The notes under the pieces were generated by a model. That model saw only the letters and a list, made by a program, of their open reading frames with translations, was not told the origin of the DNA and made no database searches. Positions 7,439 through 47,087 of a stretch of DNA of 59,062 nucleotides are shown piece by piece; within the stretch, counting starts at the first letter, position 1; every line of letters begins with the position of its first letter. Source of the DNA: a virus; the IMG/VR virus record IMGVR_UViG_3300037493_000177, positions 1 through 59,062 of that record. One strand, 5' to 3'. The translations under genes were made by a program, and so were the position numbers.

Positions 7439-8022
7439 TACATTCCTCCAGTATTTTTCCAGACTTGCGAAGAAGAAGCTTTTGTAAAACTTTCCACTGG
7501 CAACATCATTGCAGTAACCCAATCTGTTGGGGATATTAATTTAGTCGGTGTCATGACGTGGTCATAGAGATATGATTTTACACAATGCTCGGCTAACTTA
7601 TGTTTTGAAATTCCACTAATGATATTCCACGAATATCTAAGTCTAGTAGTTTCATCTAAATTTTTAGTTGATTTGAATTTTAAAAGATTGTCTAATAAAA
7701 CTACTCTAAATTTGTATGACAAGTAATGCATATTCAATCCAGTGAATCCAGTTGCCGATGTAGCAAATGGAAACACCATAGGAAATCTATCATAGTGTGG
7801 CAAAGTTTCTTTATGTTTTGGATCATAGAAAAACATATACAGACTGCCGGGTTTAATGGTATTTGATATTACACCAGAATTTGTAAACACTCCACGTGGC
7901 TTAATGCCTTCTTTAGTTAAAAGAGTAGCCTGTTGTCTAAACCAACTTCTTGAATTATTCACGACCGATTGGTCGAATTGATGCTTTTCAAAAACATCTA
8001 GCATACTTTTCTGTGGTGTCAT
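7438..8022 (-). CDS. Conserved T4-like protein of unknown function, 194 aa
   Basis: Contains the pattern PGSLYMFFYDPKHKETLP followed by YDRFPMVFPF, GLNMHYLSY, a Lys/Asp-rich TRLRYSWNI segment and near the end WVTAMMLPVESF. I recognise this as a family found in many distant T4-like phages, encoded near head-completion genes. I know of no established function, and its gene position suggests a virion or assembly protein. It overlaps gp4 upstream (ATGA) and gp54 downstream (TAATG), so the three are translated from one message. T4 itself has gp2 (DNA end protector) next to gp4; I see no basis to equate them. Confidence 0.7.
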   Translation of the reverse strand: MTPQKSMLDVFEKHQFDQSVVNNSRSWFRQQATLLTKEGIKPRGVFTNSGVISNTIKPGSLYMFFYDPKHKETLPHYDRFPMVFPFATSATGFTGLNMHYLSYKFRVVLLDNLLKFKSTKNLDETTRLRYSWNIISGISKHKLAEHCVKSYLYDHVMTPTKLISPTDWVTAMMLPVESFTKASSSQVWKNTGGM

Positions 8023-8456
8023 TTTATTCCTAGATGATGTTCAGTCAATATTATGAAATCCCATTGTCTATCATTTGCATACGTTGTTGCGGCTTTCCAC
8101 TTTGCTTCGTTTACGCCCCATGTTAATACTTCCTGTATATAACGCTTAGTTCTTTTAGATGGAGGAACCGGAGGTCTCGTTTGAGCATCTGGTTTTACTT
8201 CTACTAAATAAGTCTTAATACTTCCATCCTTGGTTTTCACTTTTATCTTGAAGTCTATAAAATATCTATGATGTCTATTGTCAACTGGAGATACATATGG
8301 GACGATAGTCTCTTCTGAGCTCCAACTTAAAACTGATGAATTCTTATCACACCATAGTGCAAATTTGGTTTCCCAGCTAGATCTCATAATAATGTTAGTA
8401 TGATCCCCAATATACTTCTCTGGATGTATCGGTTTGTACTTGCGCTTGTGAAACAT
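8019..8456 (-). CDS. 4: gp4 head completion protein, nuclease-like
   Basis: 145 aa (T4 gp4/50: 150). It shows a complete PD-(D/E)xK-type set in TnsA-like order: E29 in WETKFALWCD, D68 in YFIDFKIK, and E86-x-K88 in LVEVKP. In T4 gp4 acts after packaging to finish the head so that tails can join; a DNA-trimming role is inferred from the nuclease fold. It is the first gene of the minus-strand cluster. A late promoter box on the minus strand (8485-8492) is about 30 bases upstream of its ATG. Length, residues and context agree. Confidence 0.9.
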   Translation of the reverse strand: MFHKRKYKPIHPEKYIGDHTNIIMRSSWETKFALWCDKNSSVLSWSSEETIVPYVSPVDNRHHRYFIDFKIKVKTKDGSIKTYLVEVKPDAQTRPPVPPSKRTKRYIQEVLTWGVNEAKWKAATTYANDRQWDFIILTEHHLGIK

Positions 8457-37141: not shown

Positions 37142-40100
37142 ATGTCAAATAGACTTCTTATAAAGAAATCATCTGTAGCTACTAAAGTTCCAGTTGCTGG
37201 AGATTTAGAGTATGGCGAATTAGCCATAAACTACACAGATGAAAAAATCTATTTTAAGAATGCATCTAATGTAATCAGATCTTTTAATGCGCTATCTGGG
37301 GCAGGAACAGTAACATCAGTCGCAGGTGCTGGTACCGTCTCCGGTTTAACTCTTACAGGAACAGTAACTTCATCGGGTAGTTTAACACTTGGTGGAACGT
37401 TAGCAGTATTACCATCTAACTTTGCATCACAGACAGCCACTACCGTTCTTGCTGCGCCGACACTCACAGCCGGAGTACCAACATTTAGAACGTTGACGCT
37501 AGAAGATATTCCAGATGCATGGGTTAAGAAATCAGTAGTCGCGGCAACGACTGCAAACATTACACTATCAGCGCCGCAAACTATCGATGGCAGTGCTTTG
37601 GTCGCTGGTAATCGGGTTCTGGTGAAAAATCAAACTCTTTCACAAGAAAATGGTATATATGTAGTAGCAGCAGCTGCCTGGACTCGAGCATTAGATGCAG
37701 ATACTATTGGTAAGCTTGCAGGTGCTCATGTAAACGTAGACAGTGGAGCAACTAATGGTGGCATATCTTTTGATGCAGACCTTAGATCCACTGATGTACT
37801 TGGCACTACAGCAATGGCATGGAATAGAATTGTTGATACTGCGTATACAATACCAATCACACAAGGTGGTACTGGCGCAATAACTGCTGCATTGGCAAGA
37901 ACAGCACTAGGCGCAGGCACTGTAACTTCAGTCGCTGCATTGACACTTGGCACTACTGGCACCGACATTACATCTACAGTTGCAACTGGTACTGCAGCGG
38001 CAGTTATCACACTTAATGTTCCTACTGCTTCTGCCGCTAATCGTGGCGCACTAAGTGCTGCTGATTGGACTACGTTTAATAGTAAAGCAGCAGGATCTCA
38101 CAATCATACTTCTTTAACTGGTGTTACATCTATTGTTTTTGCAGCCGAAGCTAGTGACGCTGCATCCATATCAACGACAATAACTGGTTCATCAACATTC
38201 TTTGATTTTAATTTAACAGACGATAATAGTAACGACGAATGGCGTTGGAGATTTACCCCAAGCGGCACAACAGTATATGACGCAATGCGGTTAGTCCCGG
38301 TTAGCAATACCGCTGCAAACTTAGTTGTTTCTGGTACAGTAAGCGCTGGCGGAACAACTTTGACTGGCAATACGGGTACTGTAACATCTGTTACAACTTC
38401 TGGTACTGTAAGTGGATTGACACTTACTGACGGTACGATCACCACTACAGGTACCGTTACTTTAGGCGGAACGTTAGCAGTATTACCATCTAACTTTGCT
38501 TCACAAACAGCAAATACAGTACTAGCAGCACCTGATGGCGCGGCAGGTACTCCAACATTTAGAAACTTAACACTAAACGATTTACCCGATGCTTGGGTTA
38601 AAAAGGCTGTTGGAGCCGCAACAACTGCGGCTTTAACTATCAATACTGCTCAGGTAACAATCGATGGTGTGACACTCGCTGCTTCAACTAGAGTATTGAT
38701 TAAAAATCAGGCAGCGGCAGGCGAAAATGGTATTTATACAGGCGTTACTACTACTACATGGGTAAGAGCTCTTGACGCCGATACTGCTTCAGAAATAGCA
38801 GGTGCTTTTGTTAACGTAGATGCTGGCACTGTAAACGGTGGTAGAGTATTTGACAATGACTTTAAATCTACCGACACGTTAGGTACTACTGCGATGAATT
38901 GGTCGCAGAACGTGGATGTGGGTTATTTCACTACTGTTGGTAACAGTTTTGCGACTCTTGCAAACCCAACTGCTATCACATTCCTTAGAATTAATGCAGA
39001 TAATACAGTATCTGCTCTTGCTGCTGCAGCGTTTAGAACTGCCATTGGCGCGGGTACTAGTTCTACAACTGGTACTGTAACATCGGTTGCTGCGTTAACA
39101 ATTGGTACTACGGGTACCGACATTACGTCTACAGTTGCAACTGGTACTACTACTCCAGTTATCACACTTAATGTTCCAACTGCATCAGCATCGAATAGAG
39201 GTGCTCTAAGTGCTGCAGATTGGACTACGTTTAATAATAAACAAGCTGCTCTTGGGTTTACTCCTTATAATGCCACCAATCCTTCAGGGTATATCACTAG
39301 TAGTGCTTCAATTACTGGTAATGCTGCAACATCAACTAATGCCAGTTCTGCAATACGAATTTCATTTGCTGATCGTCGTTCCGTGGTTCAAACTCCTGGA
39401 TATTTTGGTGCAGGCGCTGATTGGTCATTTATGGCTAATAGCACTGACGGTTTATCAGACGGTGGCAGTTATCACGGGGTTATGCATTATCAGCCATATA
39501 CAGATGCATCTGGCGGTGGAGCATATGAATTAGGATTTACCGATAATAATAACTTATGGTTACGTGGTAGTTCAGGAGCACTGACCACGTTTGCAGCATG
39601 GAAAAAGATTTGGGATTCTGGGAACTTAACCAACTTAAACCAACTTACGAATGGTCCAGGTTATACTACGACCACTATAACTGCAACGACTCCTATAGTC
39701 GCTAGTGCCTCTACTGGTGCAGTAACATTAAGTCACGCCGCGTCGGGTGCAACTGCTGGTACATACAACAATGTCACAGTTAATGCTACCGGTCACGTTA
39801 CTGCTGGGTCTAATGTCGCTTATAGTACCACCACTGGTACAGTCACTTCGGTTGCAACAAGTGGCGGTTACGGAGGATTAACTCTAACTGGTGGTACAAT
39901 TACTACTACGGGTACTATCACGATGGGTGGTACTCCAACTGGTACTTGGCCTATTAGTGTTAGTGGAAGTTCAACATCGACTCCGTTAGTAAGCATTGAC
40001 AATTCTATAGCATACGGCAGAAGTGGTTTACAATTTGTTCAAATTAGTGGTGCGGCTGGAGACGTAGCAACTGCAACTAATGCACCAACTGCAGATTGGT

Positions 40101-41788
40101 GGCATATTATTAGAGGTAACCATGGTAACGCAGGAGGATATTATACTGATTTAGCTCTGCCTATGACTGCTGCTACTAATATTAGGTATCGTCGAATATC
40201 TAATGGAGCGAGTTCAGGATGGATCACAGTCTGGGATTCTACTAACTTAACAAACTTAAGCCAACTCACGAATGGTCCGGGTTATGGCACTGGCACAGTC
40301 ACTGCAGTAACAGCTACAACACCAATCGTTAGTTCTGGTGGTACTACACCTAATATTACCCATGCTGCATCTGGCGTAAGTGCTGGTACATATAATAACG
40401 TTACTGTTAATACATTTGGTCACGTTACAGCAGGATCTAATGTTGGTTATATTTCTGGTTATACAGAAACTGATACGCTGGCGTCTGTGACTGGTCGTGG
40501 TGCTGCTACTGGGTCTGCAATATCAGTTGCTTCTAGTAACTCTATGAGTATGTTTACTGGTACTAAGGGCGGCGCAACTTATGCAGATAATCTTGCAGTA
40601 TTTAGAGCAGTAGCAGATAATTCAAATGGTAGTCAAAATACTTTCTTTGAAGGCTATGTAGGTGGAACTGGTGGAACTAGATCATTCTATGTTCGTGCTG
40701 ATGGTTATATCTACGGTGCCGTTGCTGCTGGATTATCTATTACAGGCAATGCTGCAACTGCTTCACAAGTTATTGCAACTGTGACAGGCACAAGTTCTAT
40801 AGAATTAGTGCGCGGTAATATGGGAGATAATGACCAGTTCCGTATTTTAGTTGGTGCTACTGCAAGTAACGCAGGCTATGTAGAAATTGCTACAGCAGAT
40901 GATGGAAATGAGCCTATTTATGTTAGGCAATACACAGGCGTATTCGGTGCACTTACTAGAACTGCAAAGCTTTTAGATGAGTCTGGTAATACTTCATTTC
41001 CGGGGACTCTTACTGCGTCTAATCTATCAGGCACTAACACTGGTGATAATGCAGGTGTAACATCAGTCACTGCAGTTACGCCACTCGTAAGCTCAGGCGG
41101 TAATACTCCTCAAATATCGCACGCTACATCAGGTGTAAGCGCTGGTACATATAATAATGTAACTGTCAATACATTTGGTCACGTTACTGCAGGATCTAAT
41201 GTTGGTTATATTTCTGGTTATACGGAAGTAGATACGCTGGCGACTGTCACAGCTAGAGGTTCACAAGCTACTGCAAGTATTACAATTGGCTCAAATGGAA
41301 CATATGTCGCTGGTTCTATTTATTCCGATACTGCTTGGGGTATGATATTTAGAGCCAAACAAGCTTCTCCCGGAAATGCAGAGTTTAGATGGGCGACTAG
41401 CGCAGACGCAGAATTAATGAGATTGACAACTGCTGGAAATTTAACAGTTCCCGGTACTTTCTCAGCGTTGTCAAAATCATTCTTGATCGATCACCCAACT
41501 AAACCTGGAATGCAGTTACGTTATGGTTCTCTTGAAGGACCTGAGAATGGCGTCTATATTCGTGGTAGACTAAAGGGTAATAAGATCGAACTTCCAGAGT
41601 ACTGGACTAAGCTCGTTGACCCAGACTCCATCACAGTGAATCTAACCGCGATCGGTAAGTCACAGGATATATATATTGAGGACATCATTGATAATGTAGT
41701 CTATGTTGGTGGAGAGAACGTCAACTGTTTCTACACAGTGTATGCAGAACGTGTGGACATTGCAAAACTTGAAGTGGAGATTGGATAA
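37142..41788 (+). CDS. Long tail fibre protein, 1548 aa
   Basis: N-terminus LLIKKSSVATKVPVAGDLEY followed by GELAINYTDEKIYF, a fibre-attachment pattern. A domain of about 150 residues (DAWVKKSV..TTANITL, RVLVKNQT...NGIYVV, STDVLGTTAMAW) is present twice, at about 125-235 and 483-590. Two copies of a segment HA.SGVSAGTYNNVTVNTFG followed by ISGYTE.DTLA lie near residues 1075-1115 and 1328-1368. The C-terminus (about 1445-1548) has KSFLIDHPTKPGMQLRYGSL and GVYIRGRL, an ending known from cyanophage fibres. It is probably a long shaft with host-contact tip. The stop overlaps the next start. Confidence 0.85.
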   Translation: MSNRLLIKKSSVATKVPVAGDLEYGELAINYTDEKIYFKNASNVIRSFNALSGAGTVTSVAGAGTVSGLTLTGTVTSSGSLTLGGTLAVLPSNFASQTATTVLAAPTLTAGVPTFRTLTLEDIPDAWVKKSVVAATTANITLSAPQTIDGSALVAGNRVLVKNQTLSQENGIYVVAAAAWTRALDADTIGKLAGAHVNVDSGATNGGISFDADLRSTDVLGTTAMAWNRIVDTAYTIPITQGGTGAITAALARTALGAGTVTSVAALTLGTTGTDITSTVATGTAAAVITLNVPTASAANRGALSAADWTTFNSKAAGSHNHTSLTGVTSIVFAAEASDAASISTTITGSSTFFDFNLTDDNSNDEWRWRFTPSGTTVYDAMRLVPVSNTAANLVVSGTVSAGGTTLTGNTGTVTSVTTSGTVSGLTLTDGTITTTGTVTLGGTLAVLPSNFASQTANTVLAAPDGAAGTPTFRNLTLNDLPDAWVKKAVGAATTAALTINTAQVTIDGVTLAASTRVLIKNQAAAGENGIYTGVTTTTWVRALDADTASEIAGAFVNVDAGTVNGGRVFDNDFKSTDTLGTTAMNWSQNVDVGYFTTVGNSFATLANPTAITFLRINADNTVSALAAAAFRTAIGAGTSSTTGTVTSVAALTIGTTGTDITSTVATGTTTPVITLNVPTASASNRGALSAADWTTFNNKQAALGFTPYNATNPSGYITSSASITGNAATSTNASSAIRISFADRRSVVQTPGYFGAGADWSFMANSTDGLSDGGSYHGVMHYQPYTDASGGGAYELGFTDNNNLWLRGSSGALTTFAAWKKIWDSGNLTNLNQLTNGPGYTTTTITATTPIVASASTGAVTLSHAASGATAGTYNNVTVNATGHVTAGSNVAYSTTTGTVTSVATSGGYGGLTLTGGTITTTGTITMGGTPTGTWPISVSGSSTSTPLVSIDNSIAYGRSGLQFVQISGAAGDVATATNAPTADWWHIIRGNHGNAGGYYTDLALPMTAATNIRYRRISNGASSGWITVWDSTNLTNLSQLTNGPGYGTGTVTAVTATTPIVSSGGTTPNITHAASGVSAGTYNNVTVNTFGHVTAGSNVGYISGYTETDTLASVTGRGAATGSAISVASSNSMSMFTGTKGGATYADNLAVFRAVADNSNGSQNTFFEGYVGGTGGTRSFYVRADGYIYGAVAAGLSITGNAATASQVIATVTGTSSIELVRGNMGDNDQFRILVGATASNAGYVEIATADDGNEPIYVRQYTGVFGALTRTAKLLDESGNTSFPGTLTASNLSGTNTGDNAGVTSVTAVTPLVSSGGNTPQISHATSGVSAGTYNNVTVNTFGHVTAGSNVGYISGYTEVDTLATVTARGSQATASITIGSNGTYVAGSIYSDTAWGMIFRAKQASPGNAEFRWATSADAELMRLTTAGNLTVPGTFSALSKSFLIDHPTKPGMQLRYGSLEGPENGVYIRGRLKGNKIELPEYWTKLVDPDSITVNLTAIGKSQDIYIEDIIDNVVYVGGENVNCFYTVYAERVDIAKLEVEIG

Positions 41789-42312
41789 TGGCGACACACT
41801 ATGGGGCTAGATGGAGTATTACTCCCGGTGTTGCAGCACCTGCATCGGTTAACTCATTGCTGCATCTTTCATTGAGTTCTTCTGGAGGTAATCTCGGCGG
41901 TAACTATTCACATGTAGTTTCTTCCAAAGGTACAACGCTATATAGTGGAGGAGCTAATAGATCATATAGAGTGAGTTCATATGGTTTAGTTAATGGCACT
42001 TATCAGAATATAGCATCTGCTGCGTTGGATGTATATGGGTCTACTACAGATGCTGCTGCGTTGAACACATTTTTAAATAATATGTCTGTTGGAAATTTAC
42101 TTGTATTAACCACTTACGATGAACCTGCTAATAATAGATCTTACTTTAACACTAATTTAGCAACCAATTTTGGCGCAAAACTTATAGATAATCTTGGTTT
42201 TCGTTACTGCTATGTTTTAGTTGCAGCAAAGGGTAAGGGCTTAGTATATGAAGATTATGGCAGTGATACTCAGTTTAAAGCTGTCACATTAGCGATAGGT
42301 AACATATCATGA
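41788..42312 (+). CDS. GG/ILEI-domain adhesin-like protein, 174 aa
   Basis: The central and C-terminal part fits the GG (FAM3/ILEI) domain: a strand region ending in ALDVYGSTTDAAALNTFLNN, then GNLLVLTTYDEPANN, TNFGAKLIDNLGFRYCYVLVA and KGKG. The same domain type is known in T4 gp35, the hinge connector of the long fibre, so a fibre joint or tip role is reasonable. It is coupled to the long fibre gene (TAATG) and overlaps the following LamG-like gene by 4 bases (ATGA). Confidence 0.75.
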   Translation: MATHYGARWSITPGVAAPASVNSLLHLSLSSSGGNLGGNYSHVVSSKGTTLYSGGANRSYRVSSYGLVNGTYQNIASAALDVYGSTTDAAALNTFLNNMSVGNLLVLTTYDEPANNRSYFNTNLATNFGAKLIDNLGFRYCYVLVAAKGKGLVYEDYGSDTQFKAVTLAIGNIS

Positions 42313-43571
42313 GTTTAAGTCATTCACCTTCAATTGTAACAGACGGGCTAATACTATCTCTTGACGCTGCTAATAGAAAGTCGTATGTAGGAGCAGCCCC
42401 TGCATCTTTAATCAATACTGATAGTTGGACTATTAGTTCTGGCAGTGTTGCTGGCTATAACCAAAATGGTAATACAGCAGAAAATACTAGACTATACGAC
42501 ATAGACCCTTGGGGTAACCAAAGCATTGTATGGGGCACTTATGCTTCTGGTGACGGTAATGCCGATGGTGGATGGAACACAGATTATCCAGCAATTGATT
42601 CTACAAAATTATATAGATTTTCAGTATGGGTTAGAAGAACTAGTGCTACCAGCTCAGGAACATTCTATTTTGGCACGGGCGGCGGCGGCGGCGAAGTTAG
42701 AAGAACAGATAATAGTGCTACTCAAGGAAACCCCTATTGGGAATGTCAAAATACTGGTGTGCTTACACAAAATCAATGGTATTTGGTATGTGGTCACATA
42801 TATCCACACTTTACTACTTATGCTGGAAAGCACCCCAATACCGGGTATTTCACAGTAGCAGGTGGAACTACTAAAGTAATGGAAACTAATGGTTGTAATA
42901 TTGGGCAAGATTTAAAATGGGATTCAGCAAGTACTTCAGCTGTACATAGAACATATCATTATTACTGCGGTGATGCTACAACTAGACTGCAATTCATGGC
43001 TCCTAGACTTGATTTGTGCGATGGAAATGAACCGTCAATATCCGAACTATTGACTAATGGGAATAGTGTTTGGAAAGACTTGAGTGGTAAAGCAAATCAT
43101 CATGTTGTATTCAATACTCCATCGTATGCTTCTAGAGCATTCAATATAACCGAATCTAACTATTTTCAAAGAACTTCTGCATTAAACGGTGTGTCAACGG
43201 CATGTACTGTTGTAATATGGTACAAGACTACTGATGGTCAAGAATTATGGGTTCGCGGAAATAGTAGTGGAGCCTTGTATTTAAGCGCTAGTGACGGTGG
43301 TAATTATTATCATGAAGGTGCGGGGACACCAACGAATTATATAGATACTGCCGTCCTCGTAAATCCAACAGCATACAGAAATGGACAGTATCATATGTGG
43401 GAAGCTAAGAATGTAAATTTTAGCGCGTGGACGACATTTGATTGGTTTGGATATACTGGCGCATGGAATATGACTGGCACAGTTGCTGCTATAATGGTTT
43501 ATAATAGAACTCTATCAGCAGCAGAGTCTGCCCAGAATTTTCAAGCAATACGTGGAAGGCACTCAATATGA
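42309..43571 (+). CDS. LamG/ConA-like lectin tail protein, 420 aa
   Basis: Starts with SIVTDGLILSLDAANRKSYV, a segment frequent at the start of phage adhesins. The middle has a carbohydrate-binding-module-like jelly roll with WVRRTSATSSGTFYFG. The C-terminal half is a concanavalin-like fold: VWKDLSGKANHHVVF, ACTVVIWYKTTDGQELWVRG, and the ending IMVYNRTLSAAESAQNF. Such domains bind cell-surface sugars. The ending closely resembles that of the next large adhesin, so they share a module. Overlaps the next start (ATGA). Confidence 0.8.
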   Translation: MSLSHSPSIVTDGLILSLDAANRKSYVGAAPASLINTDSWTISSGSVAGYNQNGNTAENTRLYDIDPWGNQSIVWGTYASGDGNADGGWNTDYPAIDSTKLYRFSVWVRRTSATSSGTFYFGTGGGGGEVRRTDNSATQGNPYWECQNTGVLTQNQWYLVCGHIYPHFTTYAGKHPNTGYFTVAGGTTKVMETNGCNIGQDLKWDSASTSAVHRTYHYYCGDATTRLQFMAPRLDLCDGNEPSISELLTNGNSVWKDLSGKANHHVVFNTPSYASRAFNITESNYFQRTSALNGVSTACTVVIWYKTTDGQELWVRGNSSGALYLSASDGGNYYHEGAGTPTNYIDTAVLVNPTAYRNGQYHMWEAKNVNFSAWTTFDWFGYTGAWNMTGTVAAIMVYNRTLSAAESAQNFQAIRGRHSI

Positions 43572-43774
43572 TATATGAAATAAATAGTTTAAACTCATAC
43601 GAAGCTGTTCAAAGTGGAGCTAAGTTTATAATTAATTCTGCTGATGGTAGTCATGCACTAGTTTTAGCAGAGACTTTACCAGAAACAATTAATATTCTAG
43701 CAACACATGAAGAAGCTTCTTTGCCAACTTTAATGAATTCTATAGAATGGAAACAGCCATGTATTGGATGCTAA
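43568..43774 (+). CDS. Hypothetical protein in fibre region, 68 aa
   Basis: Small acidic protein with two cysteines at its very end (PCIGC) and no membrane segment. Coupled to the lectin gene (ATGA) and ends 10 bases before the ATG of the polyglycine adhesin chosen here. Small proteins between adhesin genes are sometimes folding helpers; nothing in this sequence proves that. Confidence 0.6.
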   Translation: MIYEINSLNSYEAVQSGAKFIINSADGSHALVLAETLPETINILATHEEASLPTLMNSIEWKQPCIGC

Positions 43775-43784
43775 GGGATATTAT

Positions 43785-45359
43785 ATGAGTTCAGCAGCAG
43801 GATCAAATGGCGTAACCAGTGGACTAGTTCTAGATCTTGATGGTGCTTACATCGGACTAACCGCAACCGTCGACGTACTACTTGTAGCGGGTGGCGGTGG
43901 CGGTGGAATGGACATGGGCGGTGGCGGCGGAGCCGGTGGCGTTCTATACACTACGTCTAGTATCACACATGGAAATACATATGCTGTAGTCGTAGGCGCT
44001 GGAGGTGCTGGCGCCCGCGCCAGAGATGTAGCATCTGAACGTGGTGCTAATGGTGCTAATTCTACATTCAACGGATTGACTGCTATTGGTGGAGGTGGCG
44101 GAGCATCATTCCATGATAGCTCAAGTTACCCAGCTGGTTCCGGTGGTTCTGGGGGCGGGGCATCTGGTGGAGCCCAATCCCCCAGCGGTGGTTCAGGCGG
44201 AGCTGGAGGTTACGGTGGCGGAGCTGCTGGAACTGGAACTGCTGGTCAAGGATACGCTGGTTCATTTGGAATATGGGCTTGGTATCCAGGTGGTGGAGGA
44301 GGTGCTGCTGGAGCCGGTTCAACTAATCCAGCAAACGGCGGTCCTGGTATCTGCTACCCAACAATGAGTCCATATTACTTTGGAGGAGGTGGTGGTGGCT
44401 CTGGTTATGCAGCTGGTCAAGGTGGTACTGGTGGAATCGGTGGCGGAGGAGGCGGAGCATTAGGTGATACTAGTGTTGCCGGTAAGGGTGGCCAAGGTGG
44501 TGGTAGTGCATTGAATGCGGGTGTTAATGGATCTCGCGGATTAGGCGGCAGCTGGGCTAATGTGCCTGGCGGCAGTGCTGGAGCAAACACCGGTGGTGGT
44601 GGTGGCGGAGGGTCTCACTACAATTCAAATAATGCAGGCGGTGGCGGCGGATCTGGTATTGTCATCATACGTTATCTTGGTAGACAGCGCGCCGTTGGTG
44701 GTGTAGTATCTTCACTTAATGGATATACTATTCATACGTTCTTAACTGATGGAACTTTTAGCACTGCTGCATGGGTCGACAAGAGTGGAAATGGAAACAC
44801 TGGAACTTTAACTAATGGTCCAATATATAGTTCAGCAAATGGGGGTAGCATAGTATTTGACGGAGTAAACAAGTATGTTGCCTGTGGAAATTTAGGGGCA
44901 TTTTATCCACAAGGAACTGTATCTTTTTGGATGAATGCTGCAACAATTGCAAGTTATCCTAACCCCTTTGCCACACACTTTCAAGGTTCCAATGTCGGTT
45001 TTAGATTCGAAGGTAGGGCAGACGGTAATTTTAACATGGTAGTCGGCAATGACGCAGGTACCTATACCCCACATACGTTTATTGCATCAGGCATGAGCGC
45101 AAATACTTGGTATAATATTACTTTCACCTGGATAGTGGGATCAAATATTGTTGCAGGATACTTAAATGGGGTGCAAGTATTCAATGAAGCACAGACATAT
45201 TGGGCAACTACTATGCCGAGTGTTACTATTGGAAACGGATTTAGTAATAGTAGATATTGGAATGGTAATATAAGTGTTGTTCAAATCTATAATCGTGCCC
45301 TATCAGCAGCCGAAGTCAAACAAAATTTCAATGCGACCCGAAGTCGCTATGGTATATAA
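43785..45359 (+). CDS. Polyglycine adhesin with C-terminal LamG-like domain, 524 aa
   Basis: The start is set at the ATG at 43785 because AAGGGA (43773-43778) is well placed before it; an ATG at 43764 in the same frame lies inside the previous gene. After MSSAAGSNGVTSGLVLDLD comes a region of about 260 residues dominated by glycine runs separated by short strands (residues about 35-305), like the glycine-helix sandwich of T-even gp38-type adhesins. The C-terminal part (about 330-524) is LamG-like: WVDKSGNGNTGTLTNGP, GTVSFWMN, and YNRALSAAEVKQNF. Probably the tip that contacts the host. Confidence 0.8.
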   Translation: MSSAAGSNGVTSGLVLDLDGAYIGLTATVDVLLVAGGGGGGMDMGGGGGAGGVLYTTSSITHGNTYAVVVGAGGAGARARDVASERGANGANSTFNGLTAIGGGGGASFHDSSSYPAGSGGSGGGASGGAQSPSGGSGGAGGYGGGAAGTGTAGQGYAGSFGIWAWYPGGGGGAAGAGSTNPANGGPGICYPTMSPYYFGGGGGGSGYAAGQGGTGGIGGGGGGALGDTSVAGKGGQGGGSALNAGVNGSRGLGGSWANVPGGSAGANTGGGGGGGSHYNSNNAGGGGGSGIVIIRYLGRQRAVGGVVSSLNGYTIHTFLTDGTFSTAAWVDKSGNGNTGTLTNGPIYSSANGGSIVFDGVNKYVACGNLGAFYPQGTVSFWMNAATIASYPNPFATHFQGSNVGFRFEGRADGNFNMVVGNDAGTYTPHTFIASGMSANTWYNITFTWIVGSNIVAGYLNGVQVFNEAQTYWATTMPSVTIGNGFSNSRYWNGNISVVQIYNRALSAAEVKQNFNATRSRYGI

Positions 45360-45374
45360 CATGGGAGCTATTAT

Positions 45375-47087
45375 ATGGCACTAACGGATAAAAATATTTT
45401 AATAACTCCCAACATTGGAGCAGCAGCTGACCCTAAGCTGGTATTCTCGGGAGCTGATGCGTCCACGGCAGCCCAGAACATCACGCTGACAGTTTACCCA
45501 ACCAACGGAGGTACCCTAAGCTTCGACGGTTCTACCGGTCAGCTATTCTCTGTGACCAATAGTATGAGTGGTACCATCTTCTCAGCGAATGACGTGTCAG
45601 GTATTCCAAGCATTGAAGTTATTGACACTGGTTTAGTAAAGATTGCGCAGTACTCTGGCAACTTGCTACTAGGTACTGGTACTGATACTGGACTTGCTAA
45701 GTTACAAGTAACGGGTTCATTGAGCATCACGGGTAATATGCTTTATCCAACGAACAGTAAGTCCATATACGGACCAAACACAAGTTGGTCTAGTTATTTG
45801 TACGTTGGTGGTGATGGTGTAAATGGTATCACTAGAACTGGTTCTATCGCATCTGTTGTTACTACGAATGGTAATCTGCATTTGGACTGTGGTTCTGGAG
45901 ATAGAGCATTACACTTAAACTATTATTCAGGCACAAGTGGTACTAATTTTGGCAATGGTGCTAATAGTATTACGGCAAATGTGTCTGGTGCTGGTGTATT
46001 CAATGGTACCAATGTCACAGTAAATGGCAATCAAACACTGCATGCTGGCAACTATACCTCATACTCTCCAACACTAACTGGGTCCGGTGCTTCTGGAACT
46101 TGGGGTATCAATATTACTGGAAGTGCTGGATCGGTGACGGGGTTATCGCTAAACTCTTCAGCCAACGCCGCAGTTCCCGATAACGTCACACAGAACCAAA
46201 TTGGATATAATAGCTCAGTCAGTCTGTTTGGGCAGACCGATGGTGGACTCTACTCGTCGGCACACAGCACACCTTGGGTGCATCAAATTTATGGAGATTT
46301 CCGTAGTGGTCGGATTGCTGTTCGTGGAAAGAATAGTGGAACATGGCAAGCGTGGAGAACTGTACTCGATTCAAGTAACTACAACAGCTACAGCCCGACG
46401 CTGACGGGCGGGTCAGCTAGTGGTACTTGGGGTATCTCGATTACTGGTAATTCGGCATCTTGTACAGGTAATGCCGCTACTTCGTCGAATACATCATCTA
46501 TTAGTAGTGCAACGGGGGGTGCTTATACATGGACTGGATCAAACACCTTTCAATCTAATAAAGGCTCAGGAGTATATTTAGGGGCAACAAATACCGCACA
46601 ACTTCAGGCGTATTCTAGTGACTCCGGTGCTGCGTTCATGTCATTCCATCGCGGTGGTTATTTCGCAGTAAATATGGGTCTCGACCCTGACAATGTACTT
46701 CGGATCGGGGGCTGGTCTGCATCATCAAATAGATTTCAGATGGATATGTCTGGAAACTTGACTATGGCTGGTAACGTAACAGCTTACTCAGATGAGCGCC
46801 TAAAGAAAGACTGGGAATTACTACCTACAGATTTTGTAAAGAATCTGGCTTTAGTAAAAGTTGGTACGTTTACTCGTATAGATAGCAATGAACGGCAAGT
46901 AGGGGTATCTGCGCAAAGTTTAATTACTTTATTACCTGAATCTGTACAAAATGATGGCGAGTACTTGTCCGTAGCATACGGCAATGCGGCTCTTGCCTCA
47001 GCAGTTGAGTTAGCAAAAGAAGTAGTGAGTTTAAACGCTCGTATCGCCAGACTAGAAGCTCTGGTATCAAAATTAATAGAAGGATAA
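45375..47087 (+). CDS. Tail fibre with S74 chaperone domain, 570 aa
   Basis: A beta-rich fibre with GTGTDTGLAKLQVTGSLSI near residue 100 and WVHQIYGDFRSGRIAVRGK in the middle. The C-terminal S74-type chaperone begins at about residue 470, with S472 and K477 (SDERLKK), GVSAQSLITLLPESV and LSVAYGNAALASAVELAKEV, and a coiled-coil end. The first 200 bases look richer in G+C and use other codons than the neighbours, suggesting a recently exchanged module. The ribosome site is GGGAG. It is followed by a small conserved gene after 2 bases. Confidence 0.85.
   Translation: MALTDKNILITPNIGAAADPKLVFSGADASTAAQNITLTVYPTNGGTLSFDGSTGQLFSVTNSMSGTIFSANDVSGIPSIEVIDTGLVKIAQYSGNLLLGTGTDTGLAKLQVTGSLSITGNMLYPTNSKSIYGPNTSWSSYLYVGGDGVNGITRTGSIASVVTTNGNLHLDCGSGDRALHLNYYSGTSGTNFGNGANSITANVSGAGVFNGTNVTVNGNQTLHAGNYTSYSPTLTGSGASGTWGINITGSAGSVTGLSLNSSANAAVPDNVTQNQIGYNSSVSLFGQTDGGLYSSAHSTPWVHQIYGDFRSGRIAVRGKNSGTWQAWRTVLDSSNYNSYSPTLTGGSASGTWGISITGNSASCTGNAATSSNTSSISSATGGAYTWTGSNTFQSNKGSGVYLGATNTAQLQAYSSDSGAAFMSFHRGGYFAVNMGLDPDNVLRIGGWSASSNRFQMDMSGNLTMAGNVTAYSDERLKKDWELLPTDFVKNLALVKVGTFTRIDSNERQVGVSAQSLITLLPESVQNDGEYLSVAYGNAALASAVELAKEVVSLNARIARLEALVSKLIEG

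Follow-up and report, generated by a model that had tools for sequence, protein, structure and literature searches.

The DNA considered here, called the window, is the whole of the IMG/VR virus record IMGVR_UViG_3300037493_000177 (59,062 bases), a genome with T4-type genes (gp32, gp59-like, baseplate, portal, terminase and sheath). Between the gene for a 1548-residue fibre protein and that for a second fibre protein ending in an S74 chaperone domain lie four overlapping or tightly packed open reading frames (ORFs), A to D, two of which, B and D, are the main subject. It is well supported that B and D are built on the same plan, each being a LamG/ConA-like jelly roll, a fold of sugar-binding type, in which the loop behind strand one has been opened to hold an independent domain. 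In relatives from other viral contigs this site is either occupied or empty, and the pairing of insert and frame changes from one to another. We consider it likely, with a probability of roughly three in four, that the cassette supplies a T4-like phage with modular subunits for host binding (adhesins), built on a LamG frame that would carry exchangeable domains.

An earlier note on this DNA (the original prediction) had described four coupled genes after the long fibre, and all four ORFs were found at that place. Its author had overlooked that C is a small gene conserved among relatives, that B has a second domain and that the inserts are nested inside LamG.

The LamG frames and inserts of genes B and D

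The first strand of LamG (strand A), GVTSGLVLDLDGAYI, opens gene D, which continues with a polyglycine domain (insert G) and then resumes as LamG, ending in the motif YNR.LSAAE..QNF. The LamG portion matches Laminin_G_3 (PF13385) in Pfam with E 2.2e-17 (64.1 bits, against a curated cut-off of 27.6), and the insert matches Gly_rich_2 (PF21722) with E 5.2e-10. The original prediction had polyglycine and LamG combined in D, and both are indeed present, but the polyglycine is inserted in the LamG domain and B follows the same design. Translation of D probably begins at the ATG at 43785 rather than at the TTG at 43764, because the nearest relative that we found, locus L002, starts there too.

Gene B likewise opens with the first LamG strand, IVTDGLILSLDAANRKSY, followed by a large domain (insert X) and a resumption of LamG with the same closing motif. 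No Pfam profile matched B at E<=1, those of carbohydrate-binding modules (CBMs) included. Its C-terminal half is LamG by a purpose-built frame profile, by a family-profile search of the PDB, which returned 5hon_A (E 2.1e-8) among other LamG-type chains, and by fold (Z 11.8), so that the jelly-roll or LamG domain claimed earlier for B is borne out. BLASTN between B and D within the window gave chance-level matches only, and there is therefore no sign of recent duplication.

Alignments of window and locus proteins were used to model both proteins with AlphaFold2; from 24 sequences, B reached a mean predicted local distance difference test (pLDDT) value of 74.3, and D, from 23 sequences, one of 70.6. 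AbnA domain 4 (5hon_A), a single domain of 206 residues, is matched by residues 10..412 of the B model (Z 11.8, root mean square deviation (rmsd) 3.4, 170 aligned) and by residues 12..516 of the D model (Z 19.6, rmsd 2.5, 182 aligned), the ranges being the outer limits of each alignment. Residues 31..238 of B separately match CBM4-2 (2y64_A; Z 12.2, rmsd 2.6, 150/167) and CBM61 (2xon_L; Z 12.2, 140/146), and insert X is thus CBM-like by its predicted fold, without assignment to a CBM family. The modelled evidence for a nested fold in B and D is strong but not final, because the ranges report end residues only and strand A of D has a low pLDDT. Many other fold matches belong to binding domains of clostridial neurotoxins, to sialidases of trypanosomes and, for D with Foldseek, to C-reactive protein; these reflect the common jelly roll and imply no function.

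Insert G is 39% glycine and has 11 glycine-rich segments with variable spacers; the segments are the conserved part (entropy 0.53, versus 1.12 elsewhere, over 7 sequences). It was modelled solely together with LamG, and the fold lists for D are filled by LamG-type matches. The earlier view that polyglycine and LamG in one protein is unusual needs qualifying, as LamG frames containing a G insert also occur in L002, L005, L012, L019, L051, L092 and L106, and return linkers of the form GG..HTF..GTF, similar to that of D, are found in L005, L012, L019, L051 and L092. By eye, L051 (10704-15578) encodes a 1624-residue protein with several polyglycine domains, one apparently within another, set inside a split LamG frame, and in L040 (11411-13849) a polyglycine region is interrupted by about 115 residues of CBM-like-looking sequence and precedes a split LamG frame holding a different insert.

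The ending YNR.LSAAE..QNF had been taken for a module shared by the two lectin genes. It is present in both, but it is the C-terminus of LamG: the Laminin_G_3 match of D reaches profile position 151 of 151, which, together with the 93 ORFs having such an ending, rules out a shared C-terminal module apart from LamG.

Split frames and module exchange among relatives

Related cassettes were located with the C-terminal module of the upstream fibre protein as anchor; 526 relatives were confirmed in viral contigs and the best 80 were kept. ORF surveys covered loci L001-L110 plus the window, L001 being the window itself, and used a frame profile built from 35 uninterrupted (plain) LamG proteins. An ending of the YNR.LSAAE..QNF type closes 93 distinct ORFs in the fetched loci and the window, which form 89 groups at 80% identity: 34 ORFs are plain, 54 are split (53 groups have split members) and 5 are other. 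Of these five, one begins with additional N-terminal sequence, one is a plain frame scored in two pieces, one is cut at a contig end and two have a polyglycine region with no strand A detected ahead of it. In all 54 split ORFs, the inserts of which are 142-542 residues long, the frame resumes near the same point, at a median profile position of 32 of 234 (interquartile range 29-33, range 19-60); the split class was itself defined by a resume position of 18-62, and none of the five other ORFs is split elsewhere.

A second test used separate models for strand A and for the remainder of the frame (the C-part, profiled without strand A) on the 1218 distinct ORFs that have 100 residues or more. Strand A was found, at a score of at least 9, in 148 of the 1218, and 146 of these also have the C-part; in a further 26 ORFs the C-part was found but no strand A reached that score. 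The distance between the two parts is bimodal, at most 32 residues in 67 ORFs (mostly 6-10, with one value of -20, an overlap) and 146-546 residues in the other 79, with none intermediate. Strand-A scores of at least 10 were reached by none of 1080 shuffled N-termini, as against 50 of the 54 split ORFs. Another control set proved impure, 85 of its 1151 members scoring at least 10; the 14 top ones shown resemble LamG-frame ORFs. Strand A of D, at 9.6, falls just under 10.

When 10 split proteins were searched against Pfam, LamG was above the cut-off in nine and no match was above it in the tenth; the insert of one of the ten has a sub-threshold match to CBM_4_9 (E 0.0018). The 54 inserts fall into 7 phmmer clusters of 35, 12, 2, 2, 1, 1 and 1 members, and the 12-member cluster links X and G through L019 alone, which holds both. 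A single sequence family for all inserts is rejected on these clusters and on the X profile, which was run on 42 other inserts and matches none at E<=10. Two further proteins were noted. In L114 (3599-6481; Synechococcus phage S-SKS1), middle loops of LamG seem to contain complete LamG domains, that is, other sites are used, and L112 (Phage C48C1, 141011-151054) is a 10 kb gene with low-complexity NYTGNYTR-type repeats and an X-like domain.

Comparison with L002 illustrates how the modules move. The flanks of the cassette are close in the two genomes, with 107 of 120 residues identical at the fibre end and 84 of the first 90 in the gene after the cassette. The insert of the B counterpart is unrelated to X (35 of 161 aligned residues identical), and DNA similarity in B is confined to the last 96 bases. 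In D, strand A (22/26 identical), G (263/277) and the return linker (20/26) are retained, the DNA match running from base 1 to base 1064, and LamG beyond its first 36 residues falls to 44/152. The complete conservation named earlier as a contrary outcome was thus not seen in this comparison, L002 differing in A, in the B insert and in the LamG of D.

Similar contrasts are found among other pairs. The frames of L107 and L002 are 80% identical with no insert match, those of L036 and L083 are 70% identical with inserts at 20%, and the split protein of one locus and the plain protein of another (L037 and L042) have frames 63% identical; conversely, the inserts of L005 and window B are 84% identical with frames at 27%. 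Insert and frame also travel together in pairs such as L033 and L067 (74% and 87%). As judged from these sequence comparisons, inserts and frames are exchanged independently, and the mixing of tip modules put forward in the original prediction is upheld by this exchange, the L002 comparison included.

Proposed function and rival explanations

We propose that the LamG frame would act as a structural socket, the two kept ends of which close the jelly roll and may dock to the fibre or baseplate, while the insert, together with variable loops of LamG, would display glycan- or receptor-binding surfaces. Conserved gene ends would let homologous recombination exchange the central part of a gene, and the recognition domain could thereby be changed without remaking the attachment part. 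Gene A, with its GG domain, may be an alternative module at the same position, and gene C a small accessory protein.

Several observations weigh against this proposal or the nested architecture beneath it. The break between D and its L002 counterpart falls inside LamG and not at the insert border, so exchange is not strictly socket-wise. X followed by G occurs without a frame in L017, L018, L021, L022, L023 and L024, and in Vibrio phage D480 X is found at the C-terminal end of a protein, so that neither domain is confined to split frames. In the models, the strand-A stretch of D has a block mean pLDDT of only about 41 and the frame part of B one of about 60. A LamG-frame ORF lies within 4 kb in 47 of 79 fibre-anchored loci (31 directly adjoining; at least 1.5 kb downstream; partly redundant), which counts in favour of the proposal, but the other 32 have none within that distance.

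A simpler arrangement would place the domains in series, the N-terminal 26 residues being a docking tag with insert and LamG strung behind it and no nesting. We think this unlikely, since the same 20 residues lead into the LamG C-part over a gap of at most 32 residues in 67 of the 146 ORFs, strand A lacks a C-part in only 2 of 148 ORFs (one of them cut at a contig end), and in both models strand A and C-part superpose on one contiguous solved jelly roll. It would, however, account for an N-terminus that is conserved even where LamG has diverged, as between D and L002 (22/26), and it is consistent with the poorly predicted strand A of D and an alignment range for D that consists of end residues only. 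The location of the proteins in the virion is another matter. The PHROG matched by the LamG parts, phrog_8510, belongs to the head and packaging class, so that the proteins may sit on the capsid or elsewhere on the virion. This match counts against the adhesin proposal and speaks for a reading in which the LamG proteins would coat the capsid or tail and bind glycans from the environment, such as those of mucus or algae, with variation tracking habitat and not host. The cassette nonetheless lies between fibre genes, 3' of the fibre C-terminal module, and in the cyanophage neighbourhoods viewed (L115-L120) that module is near baseplate hub and tail fibre genes, which makes decoration improbable to our minds, if somewhat less so than domains in series.

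The least probable alternative, which we regard as very unlikely, is that D is a gp38-family adhesin of the T-even type that caps the fibre tip and has LamG as an extension. S16 gp38 is described as having ten glycine-rich motifs that form a polyglycine sandwich (PMC6851490), against 11 glycine-rich segments in D, and the two are alike in having glycine-rich motifs with variable segments between them, which in D may also form a polyglycine type II sandwich presenting loops. They differ in that D has no N-terminal helical attachment domain and no gp38 profile match, and has its polyglycine inside LamG. No gp38 family appears among the Pfam matches of D at E<=1, no gp38 chain is matched by sequence at E<=1, and the D model has no N-terminal helical bundle, its sole helix of at least 4 residues being 508-522. 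Membership of D in the gp38 family was rejected on these grounds, and the kinship to T-even gp38 suggested earlier does not extend beyond the glycine-rich motifs.

The modular host-binding reading that we prefer has a precedent in the evolved distal tail protein (Dit) of lactococcal siphophages, in which an inserted CBM adds host binding (PMC6669499). Insertion of a CBM into a structural phage protein is therefore already known, and the LamG cassette is a variant of it: in both, a CBM or CBM-like module is placed inside a structural phage protein, but the carrier there is Dit, while here it is a site in a putative LamG adhesin that takes several unrelated insert families, polyglycine included, and is often empty. 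No Dit profile surfaced among the Pfam and PHROG matches at the cut-offs used, although no search was aimed at Dit. A literature search turned up no account of recognition domains inserted into LamG, a weak negative given that subscription papers were mostly outside its coverage. AbnA domain 4 and the sialidase lectin domains have the same LamG/ConA-like fold as the frame but are contiguous, attached to enzymes and without an inserted domain.

Cultured relatives, host and accompanying genes

Relatives of the fibre C-terminal module are found in 49 phage records, including that of the cultured Flavobacterium phage immuto, the host of which is Flavobacterium sp. LMO8, at 55% identity. As in the window, the fibre end of immuto (MW353176) is followed by LamG genes, the adjacent plain genes 219 and 220, annotated as structural protein in the record; gene 221 looks like a split frame into which a CBM-like domain is inserted, its strand A not being significant by profile. 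Unlike the window, immuto has neither a GG gene nor a polyglycine insert among the genes viewed.

Domain X also occurs in cellular proteins. A genome scan with two patterns gave 45 loci, of which 44 are assigned by title to Bacteroidota and 1 to Falkowbacteria; 42 of the 44 belong to genera that we take to be Flavobacteriaceae. Pfam searches of 5 of the 45 found DUF6443 in two stretches in every case, the best resuming at profile positions 26-46, and RHS repeats in 2. X is near the N-terminus in the 4 proteins read (3 of them among the five scanned) and stands between DUF6443 parts in 3 of the 4. The X domain within DUF6443 of RHS-type Bacteroidota proteins was noted in L122, L124, L128, L131 and L159. 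These proteins resemble the window genes in nesting X inside another domain, but they are cellular, the carrier domain is a different one, and their X is mostly 32-39% identical to the window copy. Locus L121, on a 14.7 kb contig of a Chitinophagaceae metagenome-assembled genome, resembles a phage contig.

Tentatively, the split LamG might be a general exchange standard, in which one jelly-roll loop accepts receptor-binding domains across many uncultivated T4-like phages and inserts can themselves nest (L051, L040). X, common to Bacteroidota RHS-type proteins and nested there too, would then point to a pool of plug-in domains shared by phage and host. How phages alter their receptor-binding domains while keeping assembly intact is a long-standing question, and the frames provide a working rule, namely to locate strand A and the C-part and to treat the intervening stretch as a candidate recognition domain, which here marked 79 inserted stretches. 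With it, predictions of module function and of host for uncultivated phages become directly testable, and the presence of X in Bacteroidota proteins is a lead to the host. The host is perhaps a Bacteroidota bacterium; the terminase points to no clear host, its nearest relatives, in Methylophilales and Synechococcus phages, being at about 50%.

Gene A matches ILEI (PF15711) with E 1.1e-10 (42.3 bits, curated cut-off 27), and its PDB relatives are FAM3C chains (E 5.5e-5) and the N-terminal part of POMGnT1 (E 0.015), a protein that carries a sugar-binding stem. The GG/ILEI domain that had been recognized in A is thereby confirmed, and profile searches, which the original prediction had named as a test of the LamG and GG folds, support both. 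Against PHROG, A has a weak match to a tail protein (E 2.8e-4); the likeness of A to T4 gp35, a hinge connector with a GG domain that the original prediction had brought up, lies in that domain. Among the fibre-anchored loci, GG-like ORFs are present in the window, L011 and L008, and in L002 the position of A is occupied by a plain LamG gene. Homologues of gene C were found in 5 other contigs, each immediately 3' of a LamG-frame ORF, and its role is perhaps in assembly or chaperoning.

Table 1. Cassette features and flanks in window coordinates. The ORFs are A 41788-42312, B 42309-43571, C 43568-43774 and D 43764-45359 (from TTG) or from ATG 43785.
Feature	Position	Strand	Basis or remark
C-terminal module of preceding fibre protein (gene 37142-41788)	41393..41785	+	anchor for finding cassettes in other viruses
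Gene A, GG/ILEI-domain protein	41788..42312	+	domain residues 71-149, about 41998-42234; PF15711
Gene B strand A, first LamG strand, residues 1-26	42309..42386	+	strand-A/C-part analysis; model strand 14-19, block pLDDT 80
Gene B insert X, residues 27-251, CBM4/CBM61-like beta sandwich (predicted)	42387..43061	+	model fold; X homologues in other frames and contexts
Gene B remainder of LamG jelly roll, residues 252-420, plus stop	43062..43571	+	frame profile positions 31-234; fold
Gene C, small conserved protein of 68 residues	43568..43774	+	homologues in 5 other contigs
Gene D strand A, residues 1-26 from ATG 43785	43785..43862	+	L002 identity; model superposition; strand-A score 9.6
Gene D polyglycine insert G, 277 residues	43863..44693	+	Gly_rich_2 PF21722; 11 glycine-rich segments
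Gene D return linker, insert to frame	44694..44771	+	20/26 identical in L002
Gene D remainder of LamG jelly roll plus stop	44772..45359	+	PF13385; AbnA domain 4 match jointly with strand A
Following fibre protein, S74 chaperone end, cassette flank	45375..47087	+	PF13884, E 2.8e-6

Elsewhere in the window, the minus strand at 8019-8456 encodes a TnsA-like endonuclease N-terminal domain (PF08722, E 5.9e-20).

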